Source: a virus | Direction: 5' to 3' (one strand) | IMG/VR virus record: IMGVR_UViG_3300028840_001326 | Span: 1-43,864 of that record | Length of the DNA stretch: 43,864 nt | Shown here: positions 1-30,347 of the stretch, piece by piece | Numbering within the stretch: position 1 is the first letter of the stretch | Layout: every line of letters begins with the position of its first letter | Translations under genes and position numbers: made by a program | Notes under the pieces: generated by a model | Told to the model about the DNA's origin: nothing | Databases searched by the model: none | The model's input: the letters and a program-made list of their open reading frames with translations, nothing else

Positions 1-144
1 CGATCTGAGCGACTCAACGCAACCCGTGGACACGTCTCCAACGCTCCCGTTCTCGTACCCGCTGAACCTTCCGTCCTCTGGGCAGGAGACGGAATACTAC
101 GCGTTGACAGCCTACAGGAATCGCTTCGGGCTCCTTAGCTTCAA
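1..144. repeat. Terminal direct repeat, left copy (assembly overlap of a circle)
   Basis: Bases 1-144 are identical to 43721-43864, so the unique unit is 43,720 bp. A reading frame passes through the join without interruption, which is what a circular or circularly permuted genome gives on assembly. I infer an assembly overlap rather than a biological terminal repeat, because it lies inside a coding gene and has the size of an assembler k-mer overlap. Confidence 0.95.
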
Positions 145-568
145 CCAGCACCCGCGGCTGATCACGATCAACGACACAGGGGAGGAGGATCCTGGGGTTC
201 TATCTCCTCCCACGATCAGGCGCGTCTTGGACGACGCGGTGGGGACCATCTCCGTCTATAGCCTTTACGCCTACGGAGTGGACAGGAATGAGGCGGACGC
301 GTGGGAGGTCTATGTCAAGGACGGGGCGGACCCGGTCCCTGGGGTGGATAGCCCTGTGGCATCGGGGACGCTCACGAGGTTGGGCGGGGACTACCAATGG
401 AAGGCCACGATCTCAGAGTCCTGGTTCTCTCCAGGGATGACGCTCCACGTCTTGTCCGTGGTCTATCGGACGGACTCCCTGGACGACACCCTGGGAGAGT
501 CTGAGGTGGTGGAACACGTTCTAGCGGATACGGTGGACCTGGATCCCCTCACGGCGGGGATCTACTGA
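1..568 (+). CDS. Distal tail protein, C-terminal part (gene starts at 43407)
   Basis: This is the 3' part of a 293-residue protein whose ATG is at 43407. The frame runs through the circular join into base 1 and stops at 566-568. The GTG at 26 is internal and should not be used as a start. The sequence is acidic and rich in beta-prone residues, with no catalytic motif that I recognise. It lies after a run of tail and appendage genes and just before the glycosyltransferase cassette. I infer a virion tail-tip or receptor-binding accessory protein from position alone; no family is recognised. Confidence 0.8.
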   Translation, partial: DLSDSTQPVDTSPTLPFSYPLNLPSSGQETEYYALTAYRNRFGLLSFNQHPRLITINDTGEEDPGVLSPPTIRRVLDDAVGTISVYSLYAYGVDRNEADAWEVYVKDGADPVPGVDSPVASGTLTRLGGDYQWKATISESWFSPGMTLHVLSVVYRTDSLDDTLGESEVVEHVLADTVDLDPLTAGIY

Positions 569-585
569 CGGAGGAATGAGGGAAG

Positions 586-1236
586 GTGATCGAGACCAGG
601 CAGGAGACGGATGGCGTTGGCGATCCAGCGCGGCCCCGCGTGGTGGCATACTTCACGATTGGGACGCCCTACGAGGAGGAGGCGGCCAAGCTCAAGGCGT
701 CCCTCGAGGAGTGGGGATACGCCTACACAATCGCGGGGATACACCATCGGGGAAGTTGGCAGGAGAACACCCAGGCCAAGGCGCCCTTCTGTCTCCAAAT
801 GCTGGAGGAGTACGAGGGAGAGCCCCTGCTCTATTTGGACGTGGACGCCCTGATGATGCGGCCTCCCGTCCTCCTGGACGGTGGACTGGACGCGGACCTC
901 GCGGCTGTCCGCTTCATTCACAGGGACGAGTTGCTCTCTGGGACTATCTGGTGGGGGAACACGGTCCAATGCAGGAGGGTAGTGAGGAAATGGATCTATC
1001 TGAACAAGGCCCATCCCAGGCGGCTCCCAGGCGGGAAGGCGGCATGGGATCAGCGGACCCTAGATATGGCAATCCAGAAGGTGGGGGGGCTACGGTTCTG
1101 CTCTCTCCCCCAGGAGTACACATACATCCAGGACCTGACACCCAGACACCTGGATCCGTGTCCCCCCCCTGTTATCCTTCATACGAGGGGCTCCCAGAGG
1201 TTCAAGAAGCAGATCGACAGGAGGAGGGCGCGGTGA
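586..1236 (+). CDS. GT-A glycosyltransferase-like protein (DxD type)
   Basis: This 216-residue protein looks like a nucleotide-diphospho-sugar transferase. Near residues 83-88 it has hydrophobic residues followed by DVDA, the place and form of the metal-binding DxD of GT-A enzymes. A later WDQRTLDMAI segment resembles the DQ motif of GT8/GT77-like families. It would move a sugar from a nucleotide donor to an unknown acceptor in the cytoplasm. The GTG start at 586 is chosen because this frame, not the overlapping one opened by ATG 576, carries the conserved motifs. It is the first of six overlapping genes and its stop overlaps the next start. The donor sugar cannot be told. Confidence 0.78.
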   Translation: MIETRQETDGVGDPARPRVVAYFTIGTPYEEEAAKLKASLEEWGYAYTIAGIHHRGSWQENTQAKAPFCLQMLEEYEGEPLLYLDVDALMMRPPVLLDGGLDADLAAVRFIHRDELLSGTIWWGNTVQCRRVVRKWIYLNKAHPRRLPGGKAAWDQRTLDMAIQKVGGLRFCSLPQEYTYIQDLTPRHLDPCPPPVILHTRGSQRFKKQIDRRRAR

Positions 1237-1883
1237 GCGTGGACGTATGGGCGGCATGGCCGACGATCTCCCCCATGCTGTCCAGGCCCCAGGTGGAGAA
1301 ATGGCGCGAACTGGGCTACAAGGTCGCGGTTCTGGTAAATCCTCCCTTCGGTCCTGAGGACTTCGAGAGGGCGGACATGGTGATTGTTCAGGAGGAATGG
1401 ACGGGCTTCCCTGTGGCGGCCAACGTGCTATGCCTGGAGGCCCCTGGGGATGTGGTGGTGATCGTAGGGACGGACATAGACCCAGACACAAGCAGGACAG
1501 CCCAGGAGCTTGGGGGCCGCTTCCTGGAGAGGTTCCCCGATCTCTGCGGCGTTATCCAGCCAACGGGGGACGAGTACGGGGAGGTCCAGAGTTGCGCGGT
1601 CTCTCCCTGGATCGGGCGCGGCTTCATTGAGAAGGCCTACGGCGGGCGCGGCCCGTATTGGCCCGGGTACTTCCACTATTTCTGTGATCGAGAACTCCAG
1701 GCGAAGGCCCAGGCCATGGGAGCCTTCGAGCAATGGCCCCAGGTGATCCAATACCATCGGCATTGGCAGAGGGAGGCGCAACCCAGGCGCCCCAGGCATT
1801 TGAGAACAGCCAAGCGGCTCCACTCCAGGGATCGGGCCATATTCGAGTCCAGACAGGCGGAAGGGTTCCCAGATGGTCGCTGA
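1233..1883 (+). CDS. GT-A glycosyltransferase-like protein
   Basis: This 216-residue protein starts at a GTG that overlaps the previous stop (GTGA). Its frame is open far upstream, to 576, but that part is only the shadow of the preceding gene. The order of features is that of a GT2-like fold: a Rossmann-like N-terminus, then VVIVGTDIDPD near residues 70-80 in place of a DxD, then a PWIGRGFIEKAYGGRGP segment and a late HRHW. The C-terminal 35 residues are strongly basic. I infer sugar transfer onto the same acceptor as its neighbours. Family assignment is by motif pattern only. Confidence 0.7.
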   Translation: MSVDVWAAWPTISPMLSRPQVEKWRELGYKVAVLVNPPFGPEDFERADMVIVQEEWTGFPVAANVLCLEAPGDVVVIVGTDIDPDTSRTAQELGGRFLERFPDLCGVIQPTGDEYGEVQSCAVSPWIGRGFIEKAYGGRGPYWPGYFHYFCDRELQAKAQAMGAFEQWPQVIQYHRHWQREAQPRRPRHLRTAKRLHSRDRAIFESRQAEGFPDGR

Positions 1884-2520
1884 TCTAAGGGAGAAGGAGA
1901 CAACGTGGGGCTCCCACTTGCCTGTCCTCACGGCGGTCCTCGAGGTTCTCAGGCCACAATCGGCCCTGGAATGTGGGTGCGGTATCTTCTCCACTCCTCT
2001 CTTACGTCGCGTTCCAAGGCTCCACTCCATCGAGCATAGTGCTGGATGGGCGCGGGCTGTTCGGGGGAGATACCCACCCACTCCAGGGCATTCTTGGACG
2101 GTGGAGCGAGTCCCCACCACTTGCTCCAAGCCCGCTCCAGAGGTGGATCCCAAGCGCGTGGAGACCATCCAGGCCTTCTATAGAGCGTTGGCCCTCGAGG
2201 AGGCTCCCGTGGATCTCCTATTCGTTGACACGTTCGCGGCTTGTCGCGTTCCTGCGGTCTTGGCCCTGGGACCCAAGGCTCAATGGATCGTTGTCCATGA
2301 CCTCGAGCCTCCAGGCCGCGAGCATTACGGATGGCCGCGGCTGGACGCCTTCTTCGAGGACTGGAAGCAGTACGTTTACAGGCCACCCCATGGAAGCGCG
2401 TGGACGGGGTTGGCATCGAGGGAGCCCCTGGACCTGGACAACCTGAGCCACGCGGCTCTCCATGAGGCGCGGCGGCTCTGGGGGCAGGATGTCCGCTTCG
2501 AGGAGGGGTGGTATGGTTGA
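1873..2520 (+). CDS. Class I SAM-dependent methyltransferase
   Basis: This 215-residue protein has the Rossmann layout of small-molecule or sugar O-methyltransferases. ALECGCGIFSTPLL near residue 31 is the glycine-rich SAM loop (motif I). An acidic HSIEHS follows as motif II, VDLLFVDTF near residue 114 is the post-II strand, and WIVVHDLEP is typical of Methyltransf_24-like enzymes. It overlaps both neighbours in the glycan cassette, so a sugar or glycoprotein substrate is the reasonable inference. DNA or RNA is less likely, because there is no target-recognition domain. Confidence 0.78.
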   Translation: MVADLREKETTWGSHLPVLTAVLEVLRPQSALECGCGIFSTPLLRRVPRLHSIEHSAGWARAVRGRYPPTPGHSWTVERVPTTCSKPAPEVDPKRVETIQAFYRALALEEAPVDLLFVDTFAACRVPAVLALGPKAQWIVVHDLEPPGREHYGWPRLDAFFEDWKQYVYRPPHGSAWTGLASREPLDLDNLSHAALHEARRLWGQDVRFEEGWYG

Positions 2521-3268
2521 CCTCGTGGCCGGGTATGCTCGCGGCTACCACGCCCGGAAGGTGCGGCCCTTCCTCAAGTCCCTGAGAATGACGGGCTACG
2601 AGGGGCGCATCTTATGGTTCGCGGACAGGGGGGCCGCGGAGGAGGGGGAGAGGTGGGGGGCCATGGTCCGCCCTCCGCCTCGTCCCGTGACCAAGGTCCA
2701 CCATGATAGATTCTTCCACCTCGCGGCGGCGGTCAAGGAGATAGCGTGCGAGGGCGTCCTGGTGGCCGATACGCGGGATGTAGTGTTCCAGAAGGACCCA
2801 AGCCAAGCTCTCCCCTCTGAGGGCTTCCACGCCTTCGAGGAGGACCTCTCCATGAGGGTGGGGAGTTGTCCCTGGAACTCCAAATGGATCCGTGAGGCGT
2901 TCGGAGAGGCGGTCCTGGAGGCCATGGCGGACCTCCCCATCTCCTGCGTTGGGGCTTCCTGCGGAGATCACAGGTCTATGAGCCTGTACCTGGATCAGAT
3001 CGCGGCGGGGATCCGCGTCCATTCCCAGGACACGGCCCACCATAACTCCATTGTTCGGCGCAGAGCCAACGAGGTCTTCCAGGGCTCCAGTCTGAGGGTC
3101 TGGGGCAACGAGGAGGGCGAGGTCTACACGGTGGGCTATGTCCCCAGGGAAACGGTGAAGATCGTCCACGGGAAGATCGTCAACAAGGCGGGGAGGGTCC
3201 CTGCCGTGGTCCACCAATGGGATCGACATGAGAACCTAAGCGCCTTTATCAAGGAGGTCTACAAATGA
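2513..3268 (+). CDS. Glycosyltransferase-like protein with DVVFQ motif
   Basis: The protein is 251 residues. ATG 2513 is chosen because an AGGAGGGG ribosome site lies at 2501-2508; the frame is open a little further upstream, without a site. The segment FFHLAA...VLVADTRDVVFQKDP around residues 70-98 matches GT-A enzymes in which D-x-R-D-V-V-F-Q carries the metal-binding acidic pair. Downstream come a Cys/Gly-rich strand, a DQI and a late VVHQWDRH, all usual in that group. It is the fourth gene of the cassette and overlaps genes on both sides by 4-8 bases. Confidence 0.72.
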   Translation: MVDLVAGYARGYHARKVRPFLKSLRMTGYEGRILWFADRGAAEEGERWGAMVRPPPRPVTKVHHDRFFHLAAAVKEIACEGVLVADTRDVVFQKDPSQALPSEGFHAFEEDLSMRVGSCPWNSKWIREAFGEAVLEAMADLPISCVGASCGDHRSMSLYLDQIAAGIRVHSQDTAHHNSIVRRRANEVFQGSSLRVWGNEEGEVYTVGYVPRETVKIVHGKIVNKAGRVPAVVHQWDRHENLSAFIKEVYK

Positions 3269-4059
3269 CGCGGAATTTTATCACCAACCAGCGGCTAGCG
3301 GAGCTCGCGGGCCTGAACTACGACGCGGAGGCTGTCCAGCCGGGGCCAATCGTTTACTCCAGGACCCAGAAGATCCATTCCCAGTTCCGACAGTTGGGGG
3401 CGTTCCCGCCCTGCGTGCTGATCACGAGCTACTCTGACGCGTGCGTAACGGACGGAATGCTCCGCGTCCTGCCTCCAAACGTCCGCCGCTGGTATTCCAA
3501 CAACGTGAGGACCAGGAGTCCGCTGGTGAGGGCGGTCCCCATTGGTATCAGGACTTCCGTGGAGGGGGAGGCCCTCCTGAGGGCGGCAATGGACCAGGGG
3601 CGTCCAGATCAGAAGGGGCTCCTGTACCTCTGCTTCTCCAAGAAGATCCCAGGAGGCCCCACGCCCAACCCAAGGCGCGGACTCTATGAGAAGTTCGAGG
3701 ACCTGGAGTGGGTCACGGCAGAGGGTGGAGGGGAGCCGGTCCCCATGGAGCAGTTCTACGAGGGGATAGCGTCCCACCCATACGTCCTCTCCCCTCCTGG
3801 GGCGGGTCCTGACTGCCATCGGCATTGGGAGAGCATTCTCCTGGGCTCGATCCCTGTGGTCCTGCGGAGCCCAGAGGTGGAGGCGGTCCTCGAGGGCTTT
3901 CCCTGCCTGATGGTGCGGAGGTGGGACGAGGTCACGGAGGAGCGGCTCCTCGAGGAGTTGCCTGGGCTCCAGGAGCGCTTCGCGTTGCCAATGGAGTCCC
4001 TGTGGTTCGAGTATTGGGAGAGCCTGATCCTGGAGGACGCGGGATGCCTCGACTCGTAG
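3265..4059 (+). CDS. Exostosin-like glycosyltransferase (GT47-type GT-B fold)
   Basis: This 264-residue protein carries the exostosin hallmark near residues 168-190: YVLSPPGAGPDCHRHWESILLG followed by SIPVVL. In the exostosin/GT47 family this segment contacts the nucleotide sugar and contains the conserved DxxRxWE. The N-terminal half is a plausible acceptor domain with less recognisable sequence. Eukaryotic exostosins build heparan-type polymers; short bacterial and viral members transfer single sugars, and their products are mostly unknown. The start overlaps the previous stop by four bases. Confidence 0.82.
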   Translation: MTRNFITNQRLAELAGLNYDAEAVQPGPIVYSRTQKIHSQFRQLGAFPPCVLITSYSDACVTDGMLRVLPPNVRRWYSNNVRTRSPLVRAVPIGIRTSVEGEALLRAAMDQGRPDQKGLLYLCFSKKIPGGPTPNPRRGLYEKFEDLEWVTAEGGGEPVPMEQFYEGIASHPYVLSPPGAGPDCHRHWESILLGSIPVVLRSPEVEAVLEGFPCLMVRRWDEVTEERLLEELPGLQERFALPMESLWFEYWESLILEDAGCLDS

Positions 4060-4667
4060 CGTGCGGGATACCCAGGAGCGGCTCAACGCTGATATGGCAA
4101 CTTCTCCAGGCCATATTCCCCCTCCAGGAGATCCAGAAGGTCCACCCGGATGTCTGGAAGCCTGAAGGGGCCACGGCGGTGATCTCGATCCGTGACCCTC
4201 GCGACGTGGTGGCCTCCCTCTACAGGATCAGGCTCGCCCGACGCCATCGGAGAGGGAAGGGGGCGGCCCGGGATCTCACGGCGGCGATCCAGCGGATGGA
4301 GGTGAGCTTCCGCGCCCTCCGCGAGGTGGTGAAGGGTCCCTCCTTGCTGCTCTGGTATGAGGACTTCTGGAACAATTACGGGGTGATATTCGACGCCCTG
4401 GAGGAGGAGTTCTCCGTGGCGATCCCCGCGGACTATCGGCGGATGCTGTCTGGAGAGTTCGGGGTCTCGAGGAACAGGGAGCGGGCGTCCAAGCTGGAGG
4501 ACTTCGGAGAGTGGGACGAGTTCCACATCCATGGGGACCACATCGGGAGCGTGAGGCCTGGGGCCTGGGCTTATGATCTGCCAGAATGGGCGAGGGCTCG
4601 CGTGGAGGAGGCCTGTTGTGGGGTAGGGGAGGAATGGGGGTATGGATCCCGGAGGCTTACGCCCTAG
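4044..4667 (+). CDS. PAPS-dependent sulfotransferase
   Basis: This 207-residue protein shows both PAPS-binding signatures. GIPRSGSTLIWQLL at residues 8-21 is the 5'-phosphosulfate loop (PxSGxT type). SIRDPRDVVAS at 48-58 is the 3'-phosphate motif with the expected Arg and Ser. It should move sulfate from PAPS to a hydroxyl, here most likely on a sugar made by the five preceding genes. ATG 4044 has a GGAGG at 4032-4036 and the gene overlaps its neighbour by 16 bases. It is the last gene before a probable terminator. It is short for the family, so the acceptor-binding part is reduced. Confidence 0.85.
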   Translation: MPRLVACGIPRSGSTLIWQLLQAIFPLQEIQKVHPDVWKPEGATAVISIRDPRDVVASLYRIRLARRHRRGKGAARDLTAAIQRMEVSFRALREVVKGPSLLLWYEDFWNNYGVIFDALEEEFSVAIPADYRRMLSGEFGVSRNRERASKLEDFGEWDEFHIHGDHIGSVRPGAWAYDLPEWARARVEEACCGVGEEWGYGSRRLTP

Positions 4668-4726: not shown

Positions 4727-4810
4727 CCCTCCCCTCGCGGACGCCCGCCCTGGGCGATCCCATAACCCAGAGATTCTTCATCCAAACGCCCGAAAACAGT
4801 CCGTTTTCCC

Positions 4811-4839
4811 TTGACTTCCCTTGTATAATCCACTATACT
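4811..4839 (+). promoter_or_regulatory. Sigma70-type early promoter
   Basis: TTGACT at 4811-4816 and TATACT at 4834-4839 are separated by exactly 17 bases. The surrounding region is unusually AT-rich for this genome. Transcription should begin near 4846. It lies between the end of the late operon and the first early gene and drives a roughly 100-base structured leader. Confidence 0.8.
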
Positions 4840-4847
4840 GTTCAACA

Positions 4848-11704: not shown

Positions 11705-11947
11705 GTGAGCAAGATCAGACCATTCTCCAACGGGAGCCAATACGCGGATTGGACGGAGAGGAACTGCGTGAGGTGCGGGAAATGGGACCCAGACAAGGCG
11801 GGGGACTGTGAGATAGACCTAGCCCTGGGCTTGGGCTACCTTGGGGACGGGCTCATTTCGGCAGAGATCGCGGACAGAATGGGCCTCCTTGAGAACCGCA
11901 GAAGCTACACTTGGGATTGTCCAGAGATCCAGAAGGGAGACGGGTGA
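11705..11947 (+). CDS. Small Cys-containing hypothetical protein
   Basis: The 80 residues start at GTG 11705, with GGAGGTGAGG just upstream. CVRCGKW near residue 21, with C34 and a C-terminal WDCPE, could give four metal ligands. It precedes the radical SAM gene and overlaps it (GTGA). A role as a partner or substrate carrier of that enzyme is conceivable but unsupported. Confidence 0.65.
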   Translation: MSKIRPFSNGSQYADWTERNCVRCGKWDPDKAGDCEIDLALGLGYLGDGLISAEIADRMGLLENRRSYTWDCPEIQKGDG

Positions 11948-12786
11948 GCGGACAGCATCTCCGCGTCTTCCCCAGGAAGACCTCGTACACGCCCACGGAT
12001 CCGGCTGTCCGCTTCGGGCCTCCAGGCCTATTTGACCGCCCGGAGTCCGTGGACGTGTCCGTAACCTTCACATGGGATATTCCTCGAGGGGAGTGGTTGC
12101 GCCACCAATGGGAGATGGTCTGTGATCGGGTGAGGATCGGCGGCCCCGCCTTCGGAGATCCAGGGGGGGCCTTCGTTCCTGGGCGGTACGTCCGCGAGGG
12201 CGTGACGATCACCTCCAGGGGCTGTCCGTGTCGCTGTTCATTCTGCTACGTTCCCAAGCGGGAGGGAAGGATCCGCGAGCTGGAGACAATCCACCCGGGG
12301 AACGTGGTCAACGACAACAACCTTCTAGCCTGTTCAAGCGATCACCTGGAGCGCGTTTGGGCCATGCTAAGAACCCAGGGGGACATCCGATTCCCTGGAG
12401 GCCTGGACGCCACGAGGCTGAAGACGGACCACATAATGGCCCTCCGCGGGCTGTCCGTGCGGGCTCTCTGGTTCGCCTTCGACTCCGGAGAGAAGTGGCC
12501 CCACGTCCAGAACGCGATCCAGCGTTGCCGCGAGTATTGGACCAGGGACCGCCTCCGCTGTTATGTCCTCATGGGCTACACGGGGGACACGATAGACGAG
12601 GCGGAGGGAAGGCTCCGTTGGGTATGGGACCAGGGGGCCATCCCGTTCGCTATGCTCTACTGTGACGACAACGGGAAGACGAGAGGAGGAGAGTGGAGGA
12701 GGCTCCAGAAGATATTTGCACGGCCCGCGATCTTGCGCGGGATCTGTAGGGACGGGAGAGATTGGAGGTCTGTTGGTGAGGCGTGA
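11944..12786 (+). CDS. Radical SAM enzyme
   Basis: This 280-residue protein contains the CxxxCxxC 4Fe-4S motif within SRGCPCRCSFCYVPKREG near residues 90-107. It should bind SAM and start radical chemistry. Downstream, FPGGLDATRL, LWFAFDS and CYVLMGYTGDTIDEAE form the partial TIM barrel strands seen in a group of phage Fe-S oxidoreductases. The substrate is unknown. In other phages such enzymes lie in replication or modification regions, as here between zinc proteins and a DNA methyltransferase, so a nucleotide or nucleic-acid substrate is possible. GTG 11944 overlaps the previous stop. Confidence 0.85.
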   Translation: MSGQHLRVFPRKTSYTPTDPAVRFGPPGLFDRPESVDVSVTFTWDIPRGEWLRHQWEMVCDRVRIGGPAFGDPGGAFVPGRYVREGVTITSRGCPCRCSFCYVPKREGRIRELETIHPGNVVNDNNLLACSSDHLERVWAMLRTQGDIRFPGGLDATRLKTDHIMALRGLSVRALWFAFDSGEKWPHVQNAIQRCREYWTRDRLRCYVLMGYTGDTIDEAEGRLRWVWDQGAIPFAMLYCDDNGKTRGGEWRRLQKIFARPAILRGICRDGRDWRSVGEA

Positions 12787-13087
12787 CTGGAACAGGAGAA
12801 TGGAAGACAGGAGGAAGCAAAAGGGCTTCCGCGGGTGGTACGTCCAGAGGAATCCCCTCCGGAGCCGCTGGTGTATCCTCTCCAAGGGCGATGTTATCGT
12901 CTGTGAAGCGTGGAACGAGTCCACGGCGCACCTCCTATCCGCGGCCCCTGAACTCTACGAGGCGGCGAAGGAGGCCCTGGGAGCCCTCGAGGACCTGGAC
13001 GGGACCCACCTCAGGATCCACGAGAAGGACCTCTACCCGCTCCAGGAGGCAATAGACAAAGCGGAAGGAGAAGGAGGTGGCGCGTGA
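12776..13087 (+). CDS. Second small protein of the SAAPELL type
   Basis: The 103 residues start at GTG 12776, with GGAGG seven bases before it. It has a basic N-terminus, GWYVQRNPLRSRW and then LLSAAPELYEAAKEAL and AIDKAE, resembling the product of 11188-11493. Its TGA at 13085-13087 overlaps both the methyltransferase start (13077) and, by the usual GTGA overlap, the start of the overprinting frame at 13084. Function unknown. Confidence 0.72.
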   Translation: MRRDWNRRMEDRRKQKGFRGWYVQRNPLRSRWCILSKGDVIVCEAWNESTAHLLSAAPELYEAAKEALGALEDLDGTHLRIHEKDLYPLQEAIDKAEGEGGGA

Positions 13088-14222
13088 GTTGGCATTATTT
13101 GGAGGGGCAGGAGGAGGCATTCTGGGAGGGATCCTCCTTGGATGGCGCACCGTCTGTGCTGTTGAACTTGATCCCTACTGTAGACGGGTTCTCCTCGCCC
13201 GACAGCGGGACGGAGTCCTCCCAAGGTTCCCGATCTGGGACGACATCCGCACCTTCGACGGGCGACCATGGCGCGGATCCGTGGACGTTGTCTCCGGAGG
13301 CTTCCCCTGTCAGGACATCAGCGCGGCAGGGAAGGGGGCAGGGATCAAGGGGGAGAGGTCTGGGCTCTGGACCCATATGGCACGGGTTATCCGTGAGGTG
13401 GGACCAGGAGGCGTATTTGTGGAGAACGTGCCAACTCTCACTTCTAGGGGACTGGGAACCGTTCTTGGGGACTTGGCCGAAATGGGGTACGATGCGGAAT
13501 GGGGAGTCCTGGGAGCGGACGACGCCGGAGCCCCTCACAGGCGGAAGCGGATCTGGATTGTGGCCTACGCCCAGGGCAGGGAAGACCACGGACGAGACGG
13601 AGGAGGCGTGGAAGGCGCGGCAGGAGGAGGGGAAGGTGGCCACGCCTCCCCTCTCCTTGGCTGTCAAGATGTGGCCGACGCCCAACGCTCCCAACGGGGG
13701 GCAGATGCTACCCAGGGACGCGGTCCAGAAGGGGGAGGCCTTCTACCACAAGGGCCGCAAGTGTCAAACCACGCTACAACAGGCGGTGAAGTTGTGGCCG
13801 ACGCCAACCCAGGACGCGATCTTCGAGAGGAAGAAGAAGTATGCCCAGGGCGGGACGCCCCTCTCCATGGCGGTCCAGAAGGAGGAGGCGGAGATTATGG
13901 CGGAGGTCAAGAACGAGGCGGCAATGTATTGGGAGGCTCAGACATGGCCGACGCCAACGGCGGGGGACGCGAAGGGTTTAGGCAATCGGAACCTGGAGAG
14001 GAGCAAGGCCCACGCGGGGACTTCCCTCACGGATGCGGTGAGAGGAGGACAGGCTCCCAGGCGCCAGGGGGTTGGTGGGAAGTTGAACCCGACGTGGGTA
14101 GAGTGGCTGATGGGGTGGCCTCTAGGGTGGACAGATTGCGAGCCCTTGGAAATGGACAAGTTCCACAGGTGGCTCGACTCGCACAAGTTCTCCTAACCTT
14201 GCGCTTCTACGATAGCCCGTGA
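13077..14222 (+). CDS. DNA (cytosine-5) methyltransferase
   Basis: This 381-residue protein has the C5-methyltransferase motifs in order: ALFGGAGGGILGG (SAM loop, I), FPCQDIS with the catalytic Cys (IV, about residue 78), VFVENVPTL (VI), APHRRKRIW (VIII) and RLRALGNGQVPQVA (X). The region between VIII and X is Gly-rich with repeated VADA, unusual for a recognition domain. It would modify phage or host DNA against restriction. GTG 13077 has AAGGAG six bases upstream. A second open frame (13084-14196) covers nearly all of it and looks coding as well. Confidence 0.85.
   Translation: MARELALFGGAGGGILGGILLGWRTVCAVELDPYCRRVLLARQRDGVLPRFPIWDDIRTFDGRPWRGSVDVVSGGFPCQDISAAGKGAGIKGERSGLWTHMARVIREVGPGGVFVENVPTLTSRGLGTVLGDLAEMGYDAEWGVLGADDAGAPHRRKRIWIVAYAQGREDHGRDGGGVEGAAGGGEGGHASPLLGCQDVADAQRSQRGADATQGRGPEGGGLLPQGPQVSNHATTGGEVVADANPGRDLREEEEVCPGRDAPLHGGPEGGGGDYGGGQERGGNVLGGSDMADANGGGREGFRQSEPGEEQGPRGDFPHGCGERRTGSQAPGGWWEVEPDVGRVADGVASRVDRLRALGNGQVPQVARLAQVLLTLRFYDSP
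13084..14196 (+). CDS. Overprinted phage protein (MSW...WPTPTA...EWLMGWPxGWTD type)
   Basis: This 370-codon frame lies inside the methyltransferase gene at +1. Its GTG has a perfect AGGAGG at 13072-13077 and forms a GTGA overlap with the preceding stop, the standard coupling in this genome. The product begins MSWHYLEGQEEA, has TWPKWGTMRNGE, four WPTP repeats (about residues 160-290) and ends with VEWLMGWPLGWTD and MDKFHRW. From memory, these features recur in many uncharacterised phage proteins. In its second half, codons are the genome's usual AAG/GAG/CAG/GCG set, whereas the methyltransferase frame there is Gly-rich. Each WPTP is the shadow of VADA. Function unknown. Confidence 0.65.
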   Translation: MSWHYLEGQEEAFWEGSSLDGAPSVLLNLIPTVDGFSSPDSGTESSQGSRSGTTSAPSTGDHGADPWTLSPEASPVRTSARQGRGQGSRGRGLGSGPIWHGLSVRWDQEAYLWRTCQLSLLGDWEPFLGTWPKWGTMRNGESWERTTPEPLTGGSGSGLWPTPRAGKTTDETEEAWKARQEEGKVATPPLSLAVKMWPTPNAPNGGQMLPRDAVQKGEAFYHKGRKCQTTLQQAVKLWPTPTQDAIFERKKKYAQGGTPLSMAVQKEEAEIMAEVKNEAAMYWEAQTWPTPTAGDAKGLGNRNLERSKAHAGTSLTDAVRGGQAPRRQGVGGKLNPTWVEWLMGWPLGWTDCEPLEMDKFHRWLDSHKFS

Positions 14223-14300: not shown

Positions 14301-15548
14301 ATGCCAAAGGCTCCCATACGAGTGGTCCAGAAGCAACTCTCCGACCTATCCCCAGACCCTGAGAATCCCCGCACCTTGTCTCCTGAAGCACGCCAAGGCC
14401 TCCAGGCCTCCCTCGAACGGTTCGGCATGGTCTCCCCTATCATCTGGAACGAGTCCACGGGAGAGGTGGTGGGCGGCCATCAGCGGCTGAAGGTCCTCCA
14501 GGACCTGGGCGTGGAGAAGGTCCGCGTGGTAGTCTGGAACGGGAGCAAGGAGGAACAGAGAGCCCTCAATGTGAGCCTGAATAATCCCGCGATCATGGGG
14601 GACTGGGACGATCAGGCCCTGGGGGACCGCCTCGAGGAGATCCGCGAGAGCATCGGGGACGAGGCCTTCCTCTCCCTCCGTCTCGAGCAACTACGGCAGG
14701 AGATAGAGGACGATCTCCCACTAGAGGGGAACACAGACCCAGACGATATTCCAGAAGACGCGGGCGAGGAGACCAAGACCAAGCCCGGGGACCTCTGGAT
14801 CCTGGGACCCCATAAGCTTCTATGTGCGGATGCCGGCGATCCGGCGGCGATCCAGCGGCTGATGGACGGACGCGTGGCCCGTCTGCTCGCGACGGATCCC
14901 CCCTACGGCGTGGACTTCGACGGGCTGAAGTACGAGACGGACGGATCCGTGGGGCGCAAGGACTGGGGGAAGATCGAGGGAGATGCCCTCGAGGGAGACG
15001 CCCTGCGGGAGTGGTTCGCGGGCGTCCTCGCCCTGTGGTTGCCCCACCTCGATCCCCAGGCCGCGGTCTATATCTGGTCTGCCCCTCTGGAGCCGGGGTA
15101 TGCTCTCCTTCAGGCTATCAGAGACGCGGGCCTCCATGTCCAGGCTCAGATCATCTGGGCCAAGAACTCCCTGATCCTGGGACAAGCGGACTATCACTGG
15201 AAACATGAGGTCTGTTGGTACGCCTTCCAGAAGGGGGAGAACCATCGATGGCTCGCGGGCAGGGACAAGACCACGGTATGGGAGGTTGACCGCGTTCCCG
15301 CTCAGAAGTACGCCCACCCAATGCAGAAGCCAACGGAACTCTACGCCCGCCCGATCCAGGCCCATACTCACCACGGGGAGACCATCCTGGACCTGTTCGC
15401 GGGCTCAGGGACCTCCCTGATCGCGGCGGAACAACTGGGACGGATCTGCTACGCGGTGGAGATAGATCCCAAGTTCTGCGATGTTGCGGTCCAGCGTTGG
15501 GAGGAGTTCACGGGCAAGGGAGCCCACAGAATGGGAGGGAAGGCATGA
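14301..15548 (+). CDS. ParB-domain fused to N6-adenine/N4-cytosine DNA methyltransferase
   Basis: In this 415-residue protein residues 8-75 form a ParB/sulfiredoxin-like domain (LSPDPENPRTLS..., VVGGHQRLKVL). Then comes an acidic linker, then a beta-class methyltransferase with DPPYGVDF (motif IV, about residue 197) before LDLFAGSGTSLIAAEQLGR (motif I, about residue 360). This order is typical of phage orphan methyltransferases. It methylates adenine or exocyclic N of cytosine in DNA; the site recognised cannot be read. GGAGG precedes ATG 14301. It overlaps the next small gene by 4 bases. Confidence 0.9.
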   Translation: MPKAPIRVVQKQLSDLSPDPENPRTLSPEARQGLQASLERFGMVSPIIWNESTGEVVGGHQRLKVLQDLGVEKVRVVVWNGSKEEQRALNVSLNNPAIMGDWDDQALGDRLEEIRESIGDEAFLSLRLEQLRQEIEDDLPLEGNTDPDDIPEDAGEETKTKPGDLWILGPHKLLCADAGDPAAIQRLMDGRVARLLATDPPYGVDFDGLKYETDGSVGRKDWGKIEGDALEGDALREWFAGVLALWLPHLDPQAAVYIWSAPLEPGYALLQAIRDAGLHVQAQIIWAKNSLILGQADYHWKHEVCWYAFQKGENHRWLAGRDKTTVWEVDRVPAQKYAHPMQKPTELYARPIQAHTHHGETILDLFAGSGTSLIAAEQLGRICYAVEIDPKFCDVAVQRWEEFTGKGAHRMGGKA

Positions 15549-17677: not shown

Positions 17678-19111
17678 ATGAACGAGGCGGCAACGGCGAA
17701 CGAGGAGCAGATCATCCGGGAACTGGTGGACAACGCGAGCCTGTGGCGGGAGACCTTTATCAATCGTCTGATCGACCCCAGGCGGGACATTAACGCGGAG
17801 TGCGGCTATCCCACGGAGTTGAATACCCAGGACTACAAGCAGATGTATGATCGGGAGGGCGTGGCCACTCGAGTGGTCAACCTGTACCCGGAGGAATCCT
17901 GGTGTATGGATCCCTGCGTGGTGGAGGACGAGGACCCAAAGGACACCGACTTCGAGAAGGCGTGGAAGGCCCTGGAGATGGAGCGGCAACTCTACGGGTA
18001 TATGCTGAAGGCGGACAAGATCAGCGGCATCGGCTGCTTCGGGATCCTCCTCCTGGGCATGAACGACGGGAAGCCCCTGAGCCAACCCGTGGACGGGATC
18101 AACGAGGAGGGGGAGAAGGTTGGGAACGCCTCCCACGATCTCCTCTATGTGCGGGCCTTCGATGAATGCCAAGTCCGCGTAGACGCCACGGAGACCAATA
18201 TCAACAATCCCAGATTCGGGAAGCCCACGTCCTATACGGTAAGCTTCATAAACACAGGCAAGCCCAACGCCTCCCACGGACAGAGGCAGACCAAGGAGCG
18301 GCTGGATCAGAAGGTCCACTGGACCCGCGTGATCCACATTGCGGAGGACGCGGAGGTGTACGCGGTTCCGCGTATGCAGACCCTATTCAATCGCCTCTAC
18401 GATATACGCAAGATCGCGGGCGGCTCTGGGGAGATGTTCTGGAAGGGCGGGTTTCCGGGGCTCTCCTTCGAGATGGACCCCAACGCCAAGCCATTGGGTC
18501 CCACGGAACTCGAGGAACTGAGGACAACGGTGGCCGCCTACGCGGACGGGCTCCAGCGATACCTCACCCTTCAGGGAATCACGGCCAAGTCCCTGACGCC
18601 CCAGGTGGCGGACCCAGGGAGCCACATAGAGGTCCAGCTTGAACTCATCTCCATTGCCCTGGGCGTCCCCAAGCGCGTCTTCATGGGGAGCGAACAGGCC
18701 CAACTCTCCTCCTCCCAGGATACCCAGAGATGGCATGGGCGCGTTTCCAGGCGACAGAATAAGTATCTGACGCCCTACATTATCAGGCCCACTATCGACA
18801 GGCTACAGGCCTTCGGGACGCTCCCAGAGGCGGACTATCGGGTCATTTGGCCCGACCTGGACACGCCCTCCGAGAAGGACAAGGCGGAGGTGATGCGGAT
18901 CCAGGTAGAGGCCCTCTCCAAGTATGTGGCGGGCAACGTGGACCAGTTGATCCCGCCGGAGAACTTCCTCTCCATGTTCGCGGACATGGACCCGGACCAG
19001 GTGAAGGAGATCATGGACGCGGCCCTCGAGAGGGAGCGGGAACTGGAGGGGTTGGAAACGGGAGACTTCGAGGAGGACGAGACGGGCGGAGAGGCTGATG
19101 GCGAAGCGTAG
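17678..19111 (+). CDS. Portal protein (DUF1073 type)
   Basis: This 477-residue protein resembles DUF1073 portals, which form the dodecameric gate for DNA in the capsid. It contains GVATRVVNLYPEESW near residue 62, a central SGIGCFGILLLGMNDG strand and a helical stem region around residues 250-300. The IALGVPKRVFMGSEQAQLSSSQDTQRW segment is highly typical of portals. The C-terminus is acidic (EEDETGGEADGEA). It follows the terminase by 16 bases and overlaps the MuF gene by 14 bases, the classic order. Confidence 0.9.
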   Translation: MNEAATANEEQIIRELVDNASLWRETFINRLIDPRRDINAECGYPTELNTQDYKQMYDREGVATRVVNLYPEESWCMDPCVVEDEDPKDTDFEKAWKALEMERQLYGYMLKADKISGIGCFGILLLGMNDGKPLSQPVDGINEEGEKVGNASHDLLYVRAFDECQVRVDATETNINNPRFGKPTSYTVSFINTGKPNASHGQRQTKERLDQKVHWTRVIHIAEDAEVYAVPRMQTLFNRLYDIRKIAGGSGEMFWKGGFPGLSFEMDPNAKPLGPTELEELRTTVAAYADGLQRYLTLQGITAKSLTPQVADPGSHIEVQLELISIALGVPKRVFMGSEQAQLSSSQDTQRWHGRVSRRQNKYLTPYIIRPTIDRLQAFGTLPEADYRVIWPDLDTPSEKDKAEVMRIQVEALSKYVAGNVDQLIPPENFLSMFADMDPDQVKEIMDAALERERELEGLETGDFEEDETGGEADGEA

Positions 19112-22100
19112 ACTTGCGCTGGATCCCACGAGGACCACAACTCTGAGGGCTCGACACGTCGCGGACATAACGCGGCGCTTCAAGGCCGTTAAGAAGATGG
19201 TGGTGGAGGCCGTGGCCGTTCTGGACGTTTTCGGCCTGAAGCCACGGGAGCCCATGGTCCTCGAGGCGGCGATCCCTGTGGCCAATGAACTCCCAGACCC
19301 CAAGGCGTGGGCCTTCACAACGGACGCCCAGAAGGTGGAATCCTTCAACTCGTGGCTCCAGAACCAGATCAACGCGGAGATCCTCTCCGTGGACGTTCAG
19401 GGGGACCCCTGGACCGCCAAGTATGTGGAGGCGGCTTACAAGAAGGGGACCGTGAAGGCCTATGCTGATATGCATCCGGAGATCATGGCCAAGAGTCCGG
19501 ACTACTACAAGGGATCCAGAGAGCAGTTCCTGAAATCCGCCTTTGAGCAGCCAGAACGCCTCTCCAAGCTGAAGCTACTCTACACGCGATCCTATGACGA
19601 GTTGAAGGGGATCACGGCGGCCATGGGCCAACAGGTGAGCCGCTCCCTTGCGGGCGGCTTGGCGGCGGGACAGAATCCCAACGTGATCGCCCGCAACATG
19701 GCCAAGGATATAGACGGGATCACCAACAGGCGGGCCAAGGTTCTCGCCCGGACGGAGATCATACACGCCCACGCGGAGGGTCAACTGGACGCCTTCCAGG
19801 AGATGAAGGTGGAGAAGATCCAGGTACAGGCGGAATGGTCCACCGCGGGGGATGACCGCGTCTGCCCGATCTGCGAGCCCCTGGACGAGACTGTGTACAC
19901 GATAGACGAGGCCCGCGAGTTGATCCCCGCCCATCCTAACTGCCGTTGTGCGTGGATCCCTGCGGGGGTGGGCGAGAAGAAGAAGGGCGAGCCCTCCAAG
20001 GCGGCCCAGGAGGAAGCGGCGAAGGCTGAAGCAGAAGCCCAGGCCGCGGCCCAGGCCGCAGCATTGGCCGCGCAACAGGTCAAGATTGCGACGGAGAACC
20101 TCTACAAGACCTCCGCCAAGACCTACGTTCCAGTGGCGGCTCCCCAGTCTTATCCGGAATACCTCGCCACCATGCAAGCGGCGGACGAGGCCTACGATGC
20201 CGCGGTCAAGGCAGGGGTGGGACCCAATATCCTCCAGGCCGTTGGGCAGGAACTGGAGACCAAACAACAGATTTTCACGTCGCAACTCCAGGGCATGAAG
20301 GCCGCGGAACTCAAGGCGTTGGCCAAGGAGACCAAGCTATCTCATTGGCAGTTCGCTAACAAGCAGGACTTTGTAACGCTGATGAGCGACCCAGACCCCA
20401 AGGCGCGGGCCGCGGTTCAGGCCAAGATAGACGAGAAGTTCAACATCTGGAAGGCCAAGCACGCGGGGAAGAAGTACCCCAAGAAGAAGCCCGCCCCACC
20501 TCCTCCCACGCCACCTCCAGCGGCGGCTCCCGCTCCAGCGATACCCTCGCCTCCCCCCACGCCACCTCCTCCCACGCCCACGCCCGCGCTTCCCAGTTTC
20601 GCGGACGTAGACGCGGCGTGGAAGAAGAAGGCCAAGCCCGGGGAGTTCACGTTCCAGAGCCGCGCCCAGGTGGGTGGCGCCCACTCGAAGGAGTTCTGGA
20701 CGGACAGCGCGGGAGATCGTTGGCTATTCAAACCAGTCCACGAGACGTTCCGCGCCCACGGAGACGAGGCGGCCTACAAGATCCAGCGACTAGTTGACCC
20801 TGACGCCATAGAGGTCCGCTTCATTGAACTGGACGGACGGGCGGGCTCGATCCAGAGATGGCGGACGGATCTCAAGAGTAAGATAGACTTCACGGGCGTG
20901 GACGTTACCACGATAACCGCGGACGAGTTGGCACAGATCCAGCGGGAACACGTCCTGGACTGGATGATCTCCAACCATGACGGACACGCGGCCCAGTATG
21001 TGAGGGCCACGGATGGCCACGTCTATGGGATCGACAAGGGCCAACTCTACAAGCATTTGGGAGAGGACCGCCTCTCTATCAGCTACCACCCCAACTCCAA
21101 GTATGGAGCGGATGAGCCTCTCTATAATACGATCTTCCGCGCCGTGAAGAATGGGACCGTGGAGGTGGATCCGAATGAAGCCCTGAAGCACATCCAGGAG
21201 ATCGAGAAACTCACGGATGACGAGTTCCTAGAGATCATAGACGCCTACGCCCGGGGCCGCTTCAAACGGCAGACCACGGCAAGGAAGCAGTTCCTGGAGA
21301 TGGCCCTCGAGCGCAAGCGCAACCTTCGGAACGACTTCGAGGCCTTCTACGCGGACGTTCTGGATCAACCGGGCTTCAAGTTCGGGGACGCCCTCCCGAC
21401 GCACCCGGAGGCCGTTGGCGATCCGCGGCGGGCTCTCTATGGAAACTCTCCAGAGGTGGCCAAGCGTGCGGAGGTGGCCAAGAGTAACGGCGTCCCAATA
21501 GCAGGGGACCGCGAGGACATAGAGGACCTGAGCCTCCTCGTATGGGAGGAGATCGGAGAGACGGGGAATCCTCAGACAGCCCTCCAGTTCAAGGTCACAA
21601 GAAGCGGGAGCGACAAGATAGCCGCAACCCTGAGGGACGAGCTGGACAGCGCGAGGGCCGCGGCGCCCTCCACCGCGAACATCCACCCAGAGGACACATA
21701 CTGGGCCACGGTGGAGAAGGCCGCCAAGACGGTGGGAGCCCACGCGGAGGACGGGGAGTATAACGTGGTTACTCTCGAGGCTATGAACCAGGAATACACC
21801 AACATCCTGGAGAAGTTGAAGACCGCCAAGGGCGACACCAAGAAGATGCTGGAGCATTACGCGGACGCCATTGAGGAGATCGACAAGGCGCGGGCGGCGG
21901 GAACGGCTCCAGCGAAGAAGTTGACCCAGTACGTTGTCCCAACCAAGGCGAAACGGGCGCGGCGTAGAAGTTCGATGCACGCAAGGAGGGACAGTGGGAT
22001 AGAGTTCAAAACCGCAACCTTCAAGGACGGGACGGGCAAGATCAGGGCCTCCGATCCAAACAGGTTCTCAAGTAACGAGGCGTACACGATCAGCACGGAC

Positions 22101-23111
22101 GAGGGGATAGAGATCAAGTTCTTACCCACGGATGGCGGGCTCTCTGAGCAACAGGGGCGAGCAATGGCGGGAACCGTGCGGGTCACTGTCCCCCAGAAGG
22201 TTGGAGAAGACGCGGTCCAGAAGGCCCTCGACATGGTGGAGGAGTTGGGCGTCTCGACCAAGCCACCCTCCGCGGCCTTCGAGGAGGCCCTCTACCTCCA
22301 CAGGGGCGTCTATATCAACAAGAAGGCGGACATGGCGTCCTATAAGGCCATCTGGGAAGACGAGACGATAACGGATGAGGAGCGGGTTGTTAAGCTCAAG
22401 GCGTGGATCAAGAAGCACATGGGGATAGACGTGGACGAGGTCCCCTCGTATGATCCACTTGGCAAGACCAAGCACGCGGACGGGAGCGGGTTCAGGGTCT
22501 GGGAACGGTGGGACCTCACCGCGGACGATATTAGACGGGAGATGCCGGACTACACGATCCAGCACACAACGGGAGGCCTTGACCAGAGTCCACAGGGGGC
22601 CGTTGCGCGTATGCTGAACGGCGTCCTGGATAGTGGTGGAGAGTTCACGTCCACAACGGGACGGATCCGGAAGGGCGTGTCCGTCTATCAGACGGGAGGG
22701 GCCTCGAGTAGTTCTGATGTGTCCACGGGCGGGGCTAATTTCTTCTTCACCAGGGTCCGCAGGGTGAACCAGACCAAGCAGACCTATGGAGTCTTCTTCC
22801 GTCCGTCCACGTTGTCCAGGCAGGATCTCCTAGCCTACCAGGGGGACAAGTTTGGACGACTGTCCGCAATGGCTCAACGGAAAACCTCTATTGCTGACTT
22901 CAAGGGAATGACCTCGAACGTATATAATGAGGCAGGGTTCAAGGAGGGCCTGAGCCTCTCGGATATAGACTTCATCCGCGTCAGGGCCTCAGAGAAGAAG
23001 GACGTTCTGGACGCGTTTCTCAGTAGAGGGATCACGGAACTCCCAGACGGGCGCAAGATCGAGGACGTGGTGATAACAGGAGCCAAGACGCCAACCTCGA
23101 GGAGCATATAG
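19098..23111 (+). CDS. Giant MuF head protein with kinase-like and putative ADP-ribosyltransferase-like regions
   Basis: The protein is 1337 residues; plain MuF proteins have about 250-500. Residues 1-300 form the SPP1gp7/MuF morphogenesis domain, with ARTEIIHAHAEG at 217, CPIC at 256 and HPNCRC at 279. A Pro-rich linker lies at about 461-502. Residues 503-755 look like a HipA/PI3-kinase-type fold: WLFK (Lys 545), DEAAYK (Glu 557), HVLDWMISNHDGH (Asp 628) and GIDKG (Asp 646). The end (about 1100-1337) has GGASSSSDVSTGGANFFFTR and NEAGFKEGLSLSDIDFI, reminiscent of ART-like phage domains. MuF toxins can be injected with DNA; activity here is inferred. Confidence 0.8.
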   Translation: MAKRRLALDPTRTTTLRARHVADITRRFKAVKKMVVEAVAVLDVFGLKPREPMVLEAAIPVANELPDPKAWAFTTDAQKVESFNSWLQNQINAEILSVDVQGDPWTAKYVEAAYKKGTVKAYADMHPEIMAKSPDYYKGSREQFLKSAFEQPERLSKLKLLYTRSYDELKGITAAMGQQVSRSLAGGLAAGQNPNVIARNMAKDIDGITNRRAKVLARTEIIHAHAEGQLDAFQEMKVEKIQVQAEWSTAGDDRVCPICEPLDETVYTIDEARELIPAHPNCRCAWIPAGVGEKKKGEPSKAAQEEAAKAEAEAQAAAQAAALAAQQVKIATENLYKTSAKTYVPVAAPQSYPEYLATMQAADEAYDAAVKAGVGPNILQAVGQELETKQQIFTSQLQGMKAAELKALAKETKLSHWQFANKQDFVTLMSDPDPKARAAVQAKIDEKFNIWKAKHAGKKYPKKKPAPPPPTPPPAAAPAPAIPSPPPTPPPPTPTPALPSFADVDAAWKKKAKPGEFTFQSRAQVGGAHSKEFWTDSAGDRWLFKPVHETFRAHGDEAAYKIQRLVDPDAIEVRFIELDGRAGSIQRWRTDLKSKIDFTGVDVTTITADELAQIQREHVLDWMISNHDGHAAQYVRATDGHVYGIDKGQLYKHLGEDRLSISYHPNSKYGADEPLYNTIFRAVKNGTVEVDPNEALKHIQEIEKLTDDEFLEIIDAYARGRFKRQTTARKQFLEMALERKRNLRNDFEAFYADVLDQPGFKFGDALPTHPEAVGDPRRALYGNSPEVAKRAEVAKSNGVPIAGDREDIEDLSLLVWEEIGETGNPQTALQFKVTRSGSDKIAATLRDELDSARAAAPSTANIHPEDTYWATVEKAAKTVGAHAEDGEYNVVTLEAMNQEYTNILEKLKTAKGDTKKMLEHYADAIEEIDKARAAGTAPAKKLTQYVVPTKAKRARRRSSMHARRDSGIEFKTATFKDGTGKIRASDPNRFSSNEAYTISTDEGIEIKFLPTDGGLSEQQGRAMAGTVRVTVPQKVGEDAVQKALDMVEELGVSTKPPSAAFEEALYLHRGVYINKKADMASYKAIWEDETITDEERVVKLKAWIKKHMGIDVDEVPSYDPLGKTKHADGSGFRVWERWDLTADDIRREMPDYTIQHTTGGLDQSPQGAVARMLNGVLDSGGEFTSTTGRIRKGVSVYQTGGASSSSDVSTGGANFFFTRVRRVNQTKQTYGVFFRPSTLSRQDLLAYQGDKFGRLSAMAQRKTSIADFKGMTSNVYNEAGFKEGLSLSDIDFIRVRASEKKDVLDAFLSRGITELPDGRKIEDVVITGAKTPTSRSI

Positions 23112-29284: not shown

Positions 29285-29935
29285 ATGCCCGACTGGTTCC
29301 CGGAGCCGATCTGGAAGGGGTGGCCCTGCTACATTATCGGCGGCGGCCCGTCCCTCGAGGGCTTCCCGTTCGAGCGGCTGGAGTTGCTTCCCGTCCTGGG
29401 CTGTAATGCCGCCTTCTATCTTGGGGTGGATGTTGTCCCCATAATGATCTTCGGGGACTCCGTCTTCCTGAAACAGCATGAGACGGGCATCAGAACCTAC
29501 GCGGCAGAGGGCGGGTGGGTTGTAACCTGTTCTGGACGGGTCAAGGGCTCCAAGCGTCCGGACTTCCTGCGGATCATGCCGCGGGAACTTCGAGGGCTCT
29601 CCCTCGAGGCCCTGGGGTGGAACGGGAACACGGGATCCGCGGCGATCAACTTGGCCCTTCTCCTGGGGGCGGACCCTATCTACCTCCTGGGCTATGATAT
29701 GCAGTTCGGGAAGGGTGGGAAGGCCAACTACCACAACGCCTATGGACGGGGACGGACGAGGACGCCCAAGCGGAAGACCTACGAGAGATTCATCAAGGGC
29801 ATGGGGCGGGTTGCCAGGGATCTGGATCGCCTATTCCCTGGGCGCCGCGTGATCAACCTTGAGGACGGGACCTCCGCCCTGGACGTATTCCCCAAGGAGA
29901 GTCTAGCGGCTCATTTCGAGGACAAGGAGGAATAG
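29285..29935 (+). CDS. Maf/DUF115-like (MptE-like) protein
   Basis: This 216-residue protein begins with WKGWPCYIIGGGPSLEGF, a nucleotide-binding Gly loop, and has GNTGSAAINLALLLGADPIYLLGYDMQFG near residue 117. Both are hallmarks of the DUF115/motility-accessory-factor family, some of whose members attach nonulosonic (sialic-type) acids to flagellin. A C-terminal VINLEDGTSALDVFPK also fits. In a phage it may transfer a sugar to a virion or host surface protein. Its place directly between head and connector genes, far from the glycan cassette, is odd. AGGAGGGG precedes ATG 29285. Confidence 0.75.
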   Translation: MPDWFPEPIWKGWPCYIIGGGPSLEGFPFERLELLPVLGCNAAFYLGVDVVPIMIFGDSVFLKQHETGIRTYAAEGGWVVTCSGRVKGSKRPDFLRIMPRELRGLSLEALGWNGNTGSAAINLALLLGADPIYLLGYDMQFGKGGKANYHNAYGRGRTRTPKRKTYERFIKGMGRVARDLDRLFPGRRVINLEDGTSALDVFPKESLAAHFEDKEE

Positions 29936-29939
29936 ACCA

Positions 29940-30347
29940 ATGGCGTCCAGTGTAACGGCGGACAAGGTGGAGGAGATCGTTGAGGTAGATCCGTCTATCT
30001 CGTTGGACATCTTCATAGAGGCGGCTCACTCCCTGGTAACGAGGGAATGCTCTGATAGCGGATATGATGACGAGACCCTGGAACTGATCGAGGCCTACCT
30101 CGCGGCCCACTTCTACAAGCTCAGGGACCAGTCCGTGGCCTCCGAGAAGGCGGGGAGCGTGGCCGTATCCTATCAGTACAAGATCGGGATGTTTCTTGCG
30201 GAGACCAAGGAAGGGCAGATGGCCATGATACTGGACACGGCGGGCAACCTCGCGGCCCTCTCCAAGCGGACGGAGGAGGGCGAGTCCGCAACGGTGAGCA
30301 TGGGGTGGCTTGGCACAGACTACGAGACGGAGGAGTATTACAGATGA
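29940..30347 (+). CDS. Head-tail connector/adaptor protein
   Basis: This 135-residue helical protein has the pattern of gp6-type adaptors that bind under the portal: LIEAYLAAHFYKLRD, EKAGSVAVSYQYKIG, EGQMAMILDTAGNLAALSKR and a final WLGTDYE. It follows the Maf-like gene by 4 bases and overlaps the next by ATGA. Confidence 0.78.
   Translation: MASSVTADKVEEIVEVDPSISLDIFIEAAHSLVTRECSDSGYDDETLELIEAYLAAHFYKLRDQSVASEKAGSVAVSYQYKIGMFLAETKEGQMAMILDTAGNLAALSKRTEEGESATVSMGWLGTDYETEEYYR

Follow-up and report, generated by a model that had tools for sequence, protein, structure and literature searches.

Why would a tailed phage encode a sulfotransferase at the end of its tail operon? The question is raised by the IMG/VR virus record IMGVR_UViG_3300028840_001326, analysed here over its entire length of 43,864 nucleotides (hereafter, the window), in which six overlapping genes (genes 1 to 6, positions 586-4667; Table 1) lie behind the last tail gene. 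In the initial annotation, made from the sequence alone, these genes were read as a cassette for three GT-A-like transferases, an S-adenosylmethionine (SAM) methyltransferase, an exostosin-type transferase and a sulfotransferase, which would make a methylated, sulfated glycan and place it on a tail protein or the host surface. The count and the coordinates of the genes proved correct. We favour, with moderate confidence, a phage-encoded cytoplasmic pathway whose product would be a glycan, sulfated and probably methylated, carried by a component of the virion. Sulfation and the building of the glycan have good support from protein folds, catalytic residues, the conserved cassette and the genes for supply of 3'-phosphoadenosine-5'-phosphosulfate (PAPS) and nucleotide sugars in related phages. 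Methylation, the other part of the annotated pathway, is plausible, given the motifs of gene 3 and the bona fide methyltransferases predicted in the cassettes of relatives.

The cassette, its enzymes and their donors

The terminal gene of the cassette, gene 6, is firmly confirmed, on sequence and predicted structure, as a PAPS-type sulfotransferase with the corresponding predicted activity. Both PAPS-binding motifs seen at the outset are conserved. The 5'-PAPS loop GIPRSGST spans residues 8-15, with G8, P10, R11, G13, S14 and T15 invariant in 10 sequences and R11 and G13 invariant in a set of 19; in the 3'-phosphate motif R50-x3-D54-x3-S58, all three residues are invariant across 10 relatives, and in the set of 19, R50 and S58 are invariant and D54 is present in at least 90%. 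In a profile search of the PDB, the matches above noise are sulfotransferase-family chains (best E 7e-7). Comparison of the predicted gene 6 model (mean predicted local distance difference test score, pLDDT, 90.6) by VIA returned sulfotransferase-family chains in all of the 50 best rows, with SULT1C3 matched at Z 16.3 (root mean square deviation 3.4, 193 aligned residues). The window protein falls 0.7 bit short of the Pfam cut-off for Sulfotransfer_3 (26.3 against 27 bits, E=1.1e-5), a gene 6 paralogue in a relative exceeds it (29.5 against 27), and two sulfotransferase families are matched above their cut-offs in relatives. A single-sequence search of viral contigs with gene 6 yielded no match, and tblastn with gene 6 over 50,697 deposited phage records found no relative; the capsid gene and gene 5 served as search baits instead.

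Gene 5 is confirmed by sequence as a GT114-like glycosyltransferase with a predicted GT-B fold. Its profile (residues 48-256) aligns with residues 66-279 of the A075L chain of chlorovirus PBCV-1 over 209 positions (E=5e-46). A075L, a beta-xylosyltransferase of the GT-B type, takes part in building the glycan on the major capsid protein of the chlorovirus by adding xylose to fucose; its Asp73 is the catalytic base, and Arg158 and Arg208 stabilise phosphates (PMC11571054). Asp73, Arg158, Arg208 and the ribose-binding Glu211 of A075L correspond to D58, R137, R186 and E189 of gene 5, all four invariant in 9 sequences. Thus, gene 5 was rightly taken for a glycosyltransferase, but the match to A075L identifies it as GT114-like and not as a true exostosin. 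When the window proteins were searched singly against Pfam, an Exostosin_GT47 match (E=0.002) was the only one besides that of gene 6, with none for genes 1-4, and a PHROGs search gave no match for any of the six.

Among the transferases initially described as GT-A-like, gene 2 is the one supported by a fold match. Its AlphaFold model is of middling quality (mean pLDDT 68.6), and the matches of this model by VIA are glycosyltransferases (WrtF at Z 11.0, ppGalNAc-T2 at about Z 10), consistent with a GT-A fold. For gene 1, the evidence weakly suggests a glycosyltransferase: D85 and D87 are invariant in 7 relatives, and three of the seven family members match Pfam Nucleotid_trans (best E 1e-4) and one Glyco_transf_34, the window protein itself having no Pfam match. 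Gene 4 is a putative glycosyltransferase, mainly by its motifs. The family comprises 145 confirmed loci in viral contigs, and D86, R88, D89, Q93, H234, Q235 and R238 are invariant across 32 sequences; it has no Pfam or PDB match, and its hhalign comparison with gene 1 was not significant. PDB profile searches with genes 1, 2 and 4 returned nothing useful. Gene 3 is probably a class I SAM methyltransferase, again mainly on motifs: ECGxGxxSTP, IEH, LFxDT and HD are conserved in the family, and the profile matches TRMT61A and PIMT weakly over the SAM-binding region (E 0.07 and 0.47, respectively), with no support from Pfam and no significant hhalign match to the methyltransferases of relatives.

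The six genes are real, because their orthologues, at 30-61% identity, keep the same order and strand in other contigs. When profiles of the six families were run over the viral-contig loci and contigs with at least three cassette genes were counted, 13 IMG/VR contigs were found (the window and 12 others), all with the order 1-2-3-4-5-6 on one strand. Seven of the 13, including the window, carry the full set, and nine carry gene 6; in two of these nine the set is incomplete, namely 3300033145_000723 (genes 3-6, cut by the contig end) and 3300013103_000031 (genes 1, 2, 5 and 6). The remaining four contigs have three or four cassette genes without gene 6, and one of them (3300009506_000334) ends after gene 4 near the contig end. 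Several relatives encode two or three tandem copies of gene 6, and four also encode a Sulfotransfer_2-family protein with its own PAPS motifs, so that a cassette can contain up to four sulfotransferases. Other insertions above Pfam cut-offs belong to the FkbM, Methyltransf_12 and radical SAM/SPASM families, and further conserved genes are inserted as well; in one locus (L146), genes 1 and 2 are fused into a single 634-residue protein, and the last gene of the block in two genomes (G002 and G007), immediately following the one before it, encodes a nucleotide-sugar epimerase-family protein. In the capsid tree, the window forms one clade (95/95) with three other cassette carriers (G002, G007 and G008), and G003 lies outside. 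Many relatives that have their virion genes in common with the window yielded no cassette, although some of these records are fragments.

Phages of this group also carry genes for the donors that such a pathway would consume. One genome with all six cassette genes (G034) encodes a full-length adenosine-5'-phosphosulfate (APS) kinase (227.6 bits) that has the complete set of CysC motifs and lies amid phage replication genes, and APS-kinase-like sequences were detected in G013 (86 bits) and in G007, where the domain (64 bits) is fused to a nucleotidyltransferase-like domain between the genes for the portal and the minor head protein. G007 also encodes, farther along that strand, Gmd (56% identity to an annotated gmd) and a GDP-fucose-synthase-like protein; G003 has Gmd-like and GDP-fucose-synthase-like genes by sequence likeness, and G008 encodes a UDP-glucuronate decarboxylase-family protein (~60% identity), the type of enzyme that makes UDP-xylose. 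Since A075L transfers xylose to fucose, these UDP-xylose- and GDP-fucose-forming genes fit the role proposed for gene 5, a suggestive correspondence at the sequence level.

Together, these genes could form a cytoplasmic pathway that would be expressed late. Genes 1, 2 and probably 4, along with gene 5, would assemble a short glycan, with gene 5 possibly acting as a xylosyltransferase on a fucose-containing acceptor; gene 3 would probably O-methylate the glycan, and gene 6 would move sulfate from PAPS onto it. The window phage would draw PAPS and nucleotide sugars from the host, and its relatives could rely on supply genes of their own. The glycan would most likely be attached to a virion protein before lysis, resulting in a negatively charged, capped coat that could alter how particles adsorb, how stable they are or how other organisms recognise them.

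Probable target of the proposed glycan and competing explanations

The genomic neighbourhood points to the virion. In the window, gene 1 starts 17 nucleotides past the stop codon of the final gene of the tail region and shares its strand. In L146, a locus with a different set of head genes (portal phrog_145, major head protein phrog_247), the cassette begins right where the capsid gene ends. In another locus (L144), the capsid gene and one small gene are followed by genes for MptE-like, GT11 and FkbM-like proteins and for a GT32-like protein with a glycosyltransferase sugar-binding domain, and a GT114-like match lies in the same region. The content of the slot that follows the tail genes can be exchanged between relatives: in G013 it is occupied by a different glycan cassette that includes a gene 1 homologue, methyltransferases (one of the Methyltransf_24 family), a GT2-like gene, a GT29 gene, and a gene with sulfotransferase-like motifs and no Pfam match.

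Several observations weigh against a virion glycan made in this way. Virion location, although most likely, is suggested by synteny alone, and comparison of the virion proteins of cassette-positive and cassette-negative relatives revealed no telling Ser/Thr-rich tails or sequons. The gene preceding the cassette encodes a g0-type protein in both the window and G008 and a different protein of about 200 amino acids in G001, G002 and G007. No genes for PAPS or nucleotide-sugar synthesis were found in the window. Genes 3 and 4 are backed by motifs or weak matches alone, and the donor-binding Asn148 of A075L is replaced by Cys123 in the window gene 5 (Asn is present in 6 of the 9 sequences), which is why we call this enzyme GT114-like and claim no donor sugar.

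The upstream tail gene was considered as a general acceptor and rejected, because relatives that keep the cassette have different genes at this position. The tail protein named as a possible target in the initial annotation accordingly finds no specific support, all the more as the cassette of L146 follows the major capsid gene. The other proposed target, the host surface, is less likely than the virion. Under this explanation, which we consider unlikely, the cassette would alter the host cell surface, for example as a soluble branch of a capsule or lipopolysaccharide pathway, and so block superinfection or the receptors bound by phages. Glycan-tailoring enzymes are the classical tools of O-antigen conversion, and sulfated surface glycans occur in bacteria. 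A related cluster in LR756500, a 462-kb uncultured phage (L117), resembles surface polysaccharide metabolism: it combines a gene 1 homologue, Sulfotransfer_2 and methyltransferases with KdsA-like and KdsB-like proteins of KDO synthesis in a large glycan cluster, and an APS kinase is encoded elsewhere in that genome. Against this reading, neither the cassette nor the extra genes tested in relatives yielded a polyprenyl-linked transferase, a flippase or a convincing transmembrane protein; in the hydrophobicity scan of the cassette, the peaks in genes 2 and 3 (Kyte-Doolittle value 1.7) are best read as buried core. The search for phage integrases of the PF00589 type, the only type searched, found none in the window or six relatives. 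Thus, neither an integrase of this type nor a convincing transmembrane segment, both features of gtr-type serotype conversion, is in evidence, and the cassette sits at the end of the virion operon, with capsid-gene linkage in L146 and L144.

Also improbable, and placed below the host surface, is hypermodification of the bases of phage DNA by addition of a decorated sugar, as in the TET/JBP-linked systems of phages. Nucleotide modification systems based on glycosyltransferases and sulfotransferases are reported for phages in a passage of PMC10829341 that cites Iyer et al. 2013, providing a precedent for glycosylation and sulfation of nucleotides, and the window encodes a C5 DNA methylase and a ParB-fused N6/N4 methylase. 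The C5 methylase, however, was found in the window and G005 only and not in four relatives that have both the cassette and the capsid gene, and the linkage of the cassette is with capsid and tail genes rather than with genes for replication. No thymidylate-synthase-type base-entry enzyme was detected in the window or six relatives, in a search with a positive control; a Tet_JBP search found no match either, but its controls were equally silent, so this result carries little weight.

Modification of a secreted or small peptide, or of another small molecule, with the radical SAM/SPASM proteins of relatives as peptide-maturing enzymes, is far less probable. A radical SAM/SPASM gene lies inside the L049 cassette and similar genes occur in L050 and L051, but the window cassette and several others lack this gene; likewise, the top Foldseek match of gene 2 is the S-glycosyltransferase SunS, but this is a general GT-A match, and WrtF and GalNAc-T rank highest by VIA. 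No precursor-peptide gene turned up, and none was sought. Least probable of all is a passing cargo without a selected role in the window phage, which would agree with the patchy detection of the cassette among relatives but not with the six intact reading frames, the invariant catalytic residues, a third-position GC content close to that of the virion genes and a gene order kept across deep divergence.

Genome context and additional genes

The record carries a 144-bp direct terminal repeat (positions 1-144 and 43721-43864), indicating a complete circular genome of about 43.7 kb in which the open reading frames at the two record ends are one gene, the last tail-region gene. All five junctions of the cassette are overlaps of 4-16 bp. 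Downstream lies an early gene block with Gam-like, Erf-like, endolysin and replication genes; the sigma-70-like promoter in between is weak evidence, given a chance expectation of 0.9 such sites (shuffled mean). A near-DNA search of a phage collection with the window found no match. Sought as a guide to the host, capsid homologues in genomes lie on contigs, mostly short, that are binned with Thermoplasmata, Bacteroidales, Balneolales, Marinimicrobia and Zixibacteria, a set that singles out no host.

Table 1. Coordinates of the cassette and of other features in the window and in related loci (window positions unless a locus is named).
Feature	Position	Strand	Remarks
Last tail-region gene	43407..43720 + 1..568	+	whole across record join; homologues in G008, G009, G013, G014
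Gene 1	586..1236	+	GT-A-like glycosyltransferase (weakly supported); YLDVDA (DxD-type) motif
Gene 2	1233..1883	+	predicted GT-A-fold glycosyltransferase (GT2-like)
Gene 3	1873..2520	+	probable class I SAM methyltransferase
Gene 4	2513..3268	+	putative glycosyltransferase; D-x-R-D and HQWDRH motifs
Gene 5	3265..4059	+	predicted GT-B glycosyltransferase, GT114/A075L kind
Gene 6	4044..4667	+	PAPS-dependent sulfotransferase (predicted activity)
Sigma-70-like promoter	4811..4839	+	TTGACT-17-TATACT; 10/12 matches; sole site in 1-5000
Radical SAM protein	11911..12786		phrog_9298
C5 DNA methylase	13077..14222		repeated WPTP motifs
ParB-N6/N4 DNA methylase fusion	14301..15548		adjoins C5 DNA methylase
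Minor head protein	19098..23111		1337 residues
MptE/DUF115-like gene	29285..29935	+	possible accessory glycan gene; phrog_4603 E=2e-19, PF01973 E=3e-4; just behind major capsid gene
848-residue protein	30305..32851		between head and tail genes
Canonical APS kinase (CysC)	L261 6863-7435		in replication cluster of cassette phage
APS-kinase-like/nucleotidyltransferase fusion, minor head, Gmd and GDP-fucose-synthase-like genes	G007 57549-61648 (L084)		interleaved; sugar-donor genes amid head genes
Conserved gene with ParB-like DGxHR motif	L049 6943-7404, L050 6945-7403, L051 3072-3572		inside extended cassettes; no Pfam match
NUMOD3 + TnsA-like homing-type endonuclease genes	L047 5157-5879 and 10573-11280		

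The MptE-like gene belongs to a family (phrog_4603) annotated as alpha-2,3-sialyltransferase, is found beside the capsid gene in many relatives and has related genes in large phages of Caulobacter and Brevundimonas; the start of its open reading frame at 28811 is probably too early. The DGxHR-motif gene of the extended cassettes is possibly an unrecognised modifying enzyme. In L047, one homing-type endonuclease gene lies downstream of the sulfotransferases, and the NUMOD3 match was obtained on this copy; a similar one lies between genes 1 and 2.

Elsewhere in the window, the 848-residue protein has a signal-peptide-like start (MRKALLFGMLLWASWITA), a Pro/Thr-rich stretch and fibre-like repeats, and no homologue in the 13 records compared. 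The minor head protein has a long C-terminal extension with a Pro-rich linker and, possibly, a kinase-like segment; this long form is common to the window and G014, and other relatives match it far less. The early-region radical SAM gene is also present in G001, on the minus strand.

Comparison with known systems

The closest parallel to the proposed virion glycan pathway is found in chlorovirus PBCV-1, where virus-encoded, mostly predicted-soluble glycosyltransferases (A075L and partners) glycosylate a virion protein (PMC11571054, PMC9614988). Gene 5 is related to A075L in sequence and retains its catalytic Asp and phosphate-binding Arg residues, connecting a phage enzyme family with a chlorovirus capsid xylosyltransferase, and the enzymes forming UDP-xylose and GDP-fucose in relatives of the cassette phage mirror the transfer of xylose to fucose by A075L. 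Unlike PBCV-1, the window is a tailed phage with a single compact cassette that includes a sulfotransferase, and gene 5 alone was compared directly with the chlorovirus enzymes. A review of giant-virus glycans mentions neither a sulfotransferase nor sulfated glycans. In mycobacteriophages Che8, Corndog and Myrna, phage glycosyltransferases modify capsid and tail-tube proteins (Freeman et al. 2023, as cited in PMC12363180 and PMC12619734); the likeness is one of description, and the citing account consulted names no sulfotransferase.

Gene 6 shares its fold, 5'-PAPS loop and 3'-phosphate motif with cytosolic and Golgi PAPS sulfotransferases (SULT1C3, Sulfotransfer_1/2/3), but differs from them in its size of about 200 residues, in forming a compact phage subfamily at 8-18% identity and in the tandem copies of relatives. 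Annotations of sulfotransferases exist for other viruses too, and for metagenomic Caudovirales and huge phages (BFVD entries, LR756500); the six-gene order was found in IMG/VR contigs only. The literature searched on sulfotransferases and sulfated glycans in phages and viruses yielded passing mentions and no conserved phage pathway ending in sulfation.

A broader proposal, which we advance tentatively, is that phages of this uncultured lineage coat their virions with a glycan of their own making, sulfated, methylated and built with xylose and fucose, which is encoded by an exchangeable locus behind the tail or capsid genes; several members would themselves supply PAPS and nucleotide sugars. 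If so, phage particles could bear a charged, sulfated coat that would affect adsorption, recognition and phage ecology, and the cassette offers several small and probably soluble enzymes that are ready for assay. Virus-encoded glycosylation of virions is already known and phage sulfotransferases are already annotated; what is new, within the reach of our searches, is a small ordered cassette that combines an A075L-like enzyme with one or more sulfotransferases and is kept across a lineage together with genes for PAPS and sugar donors.

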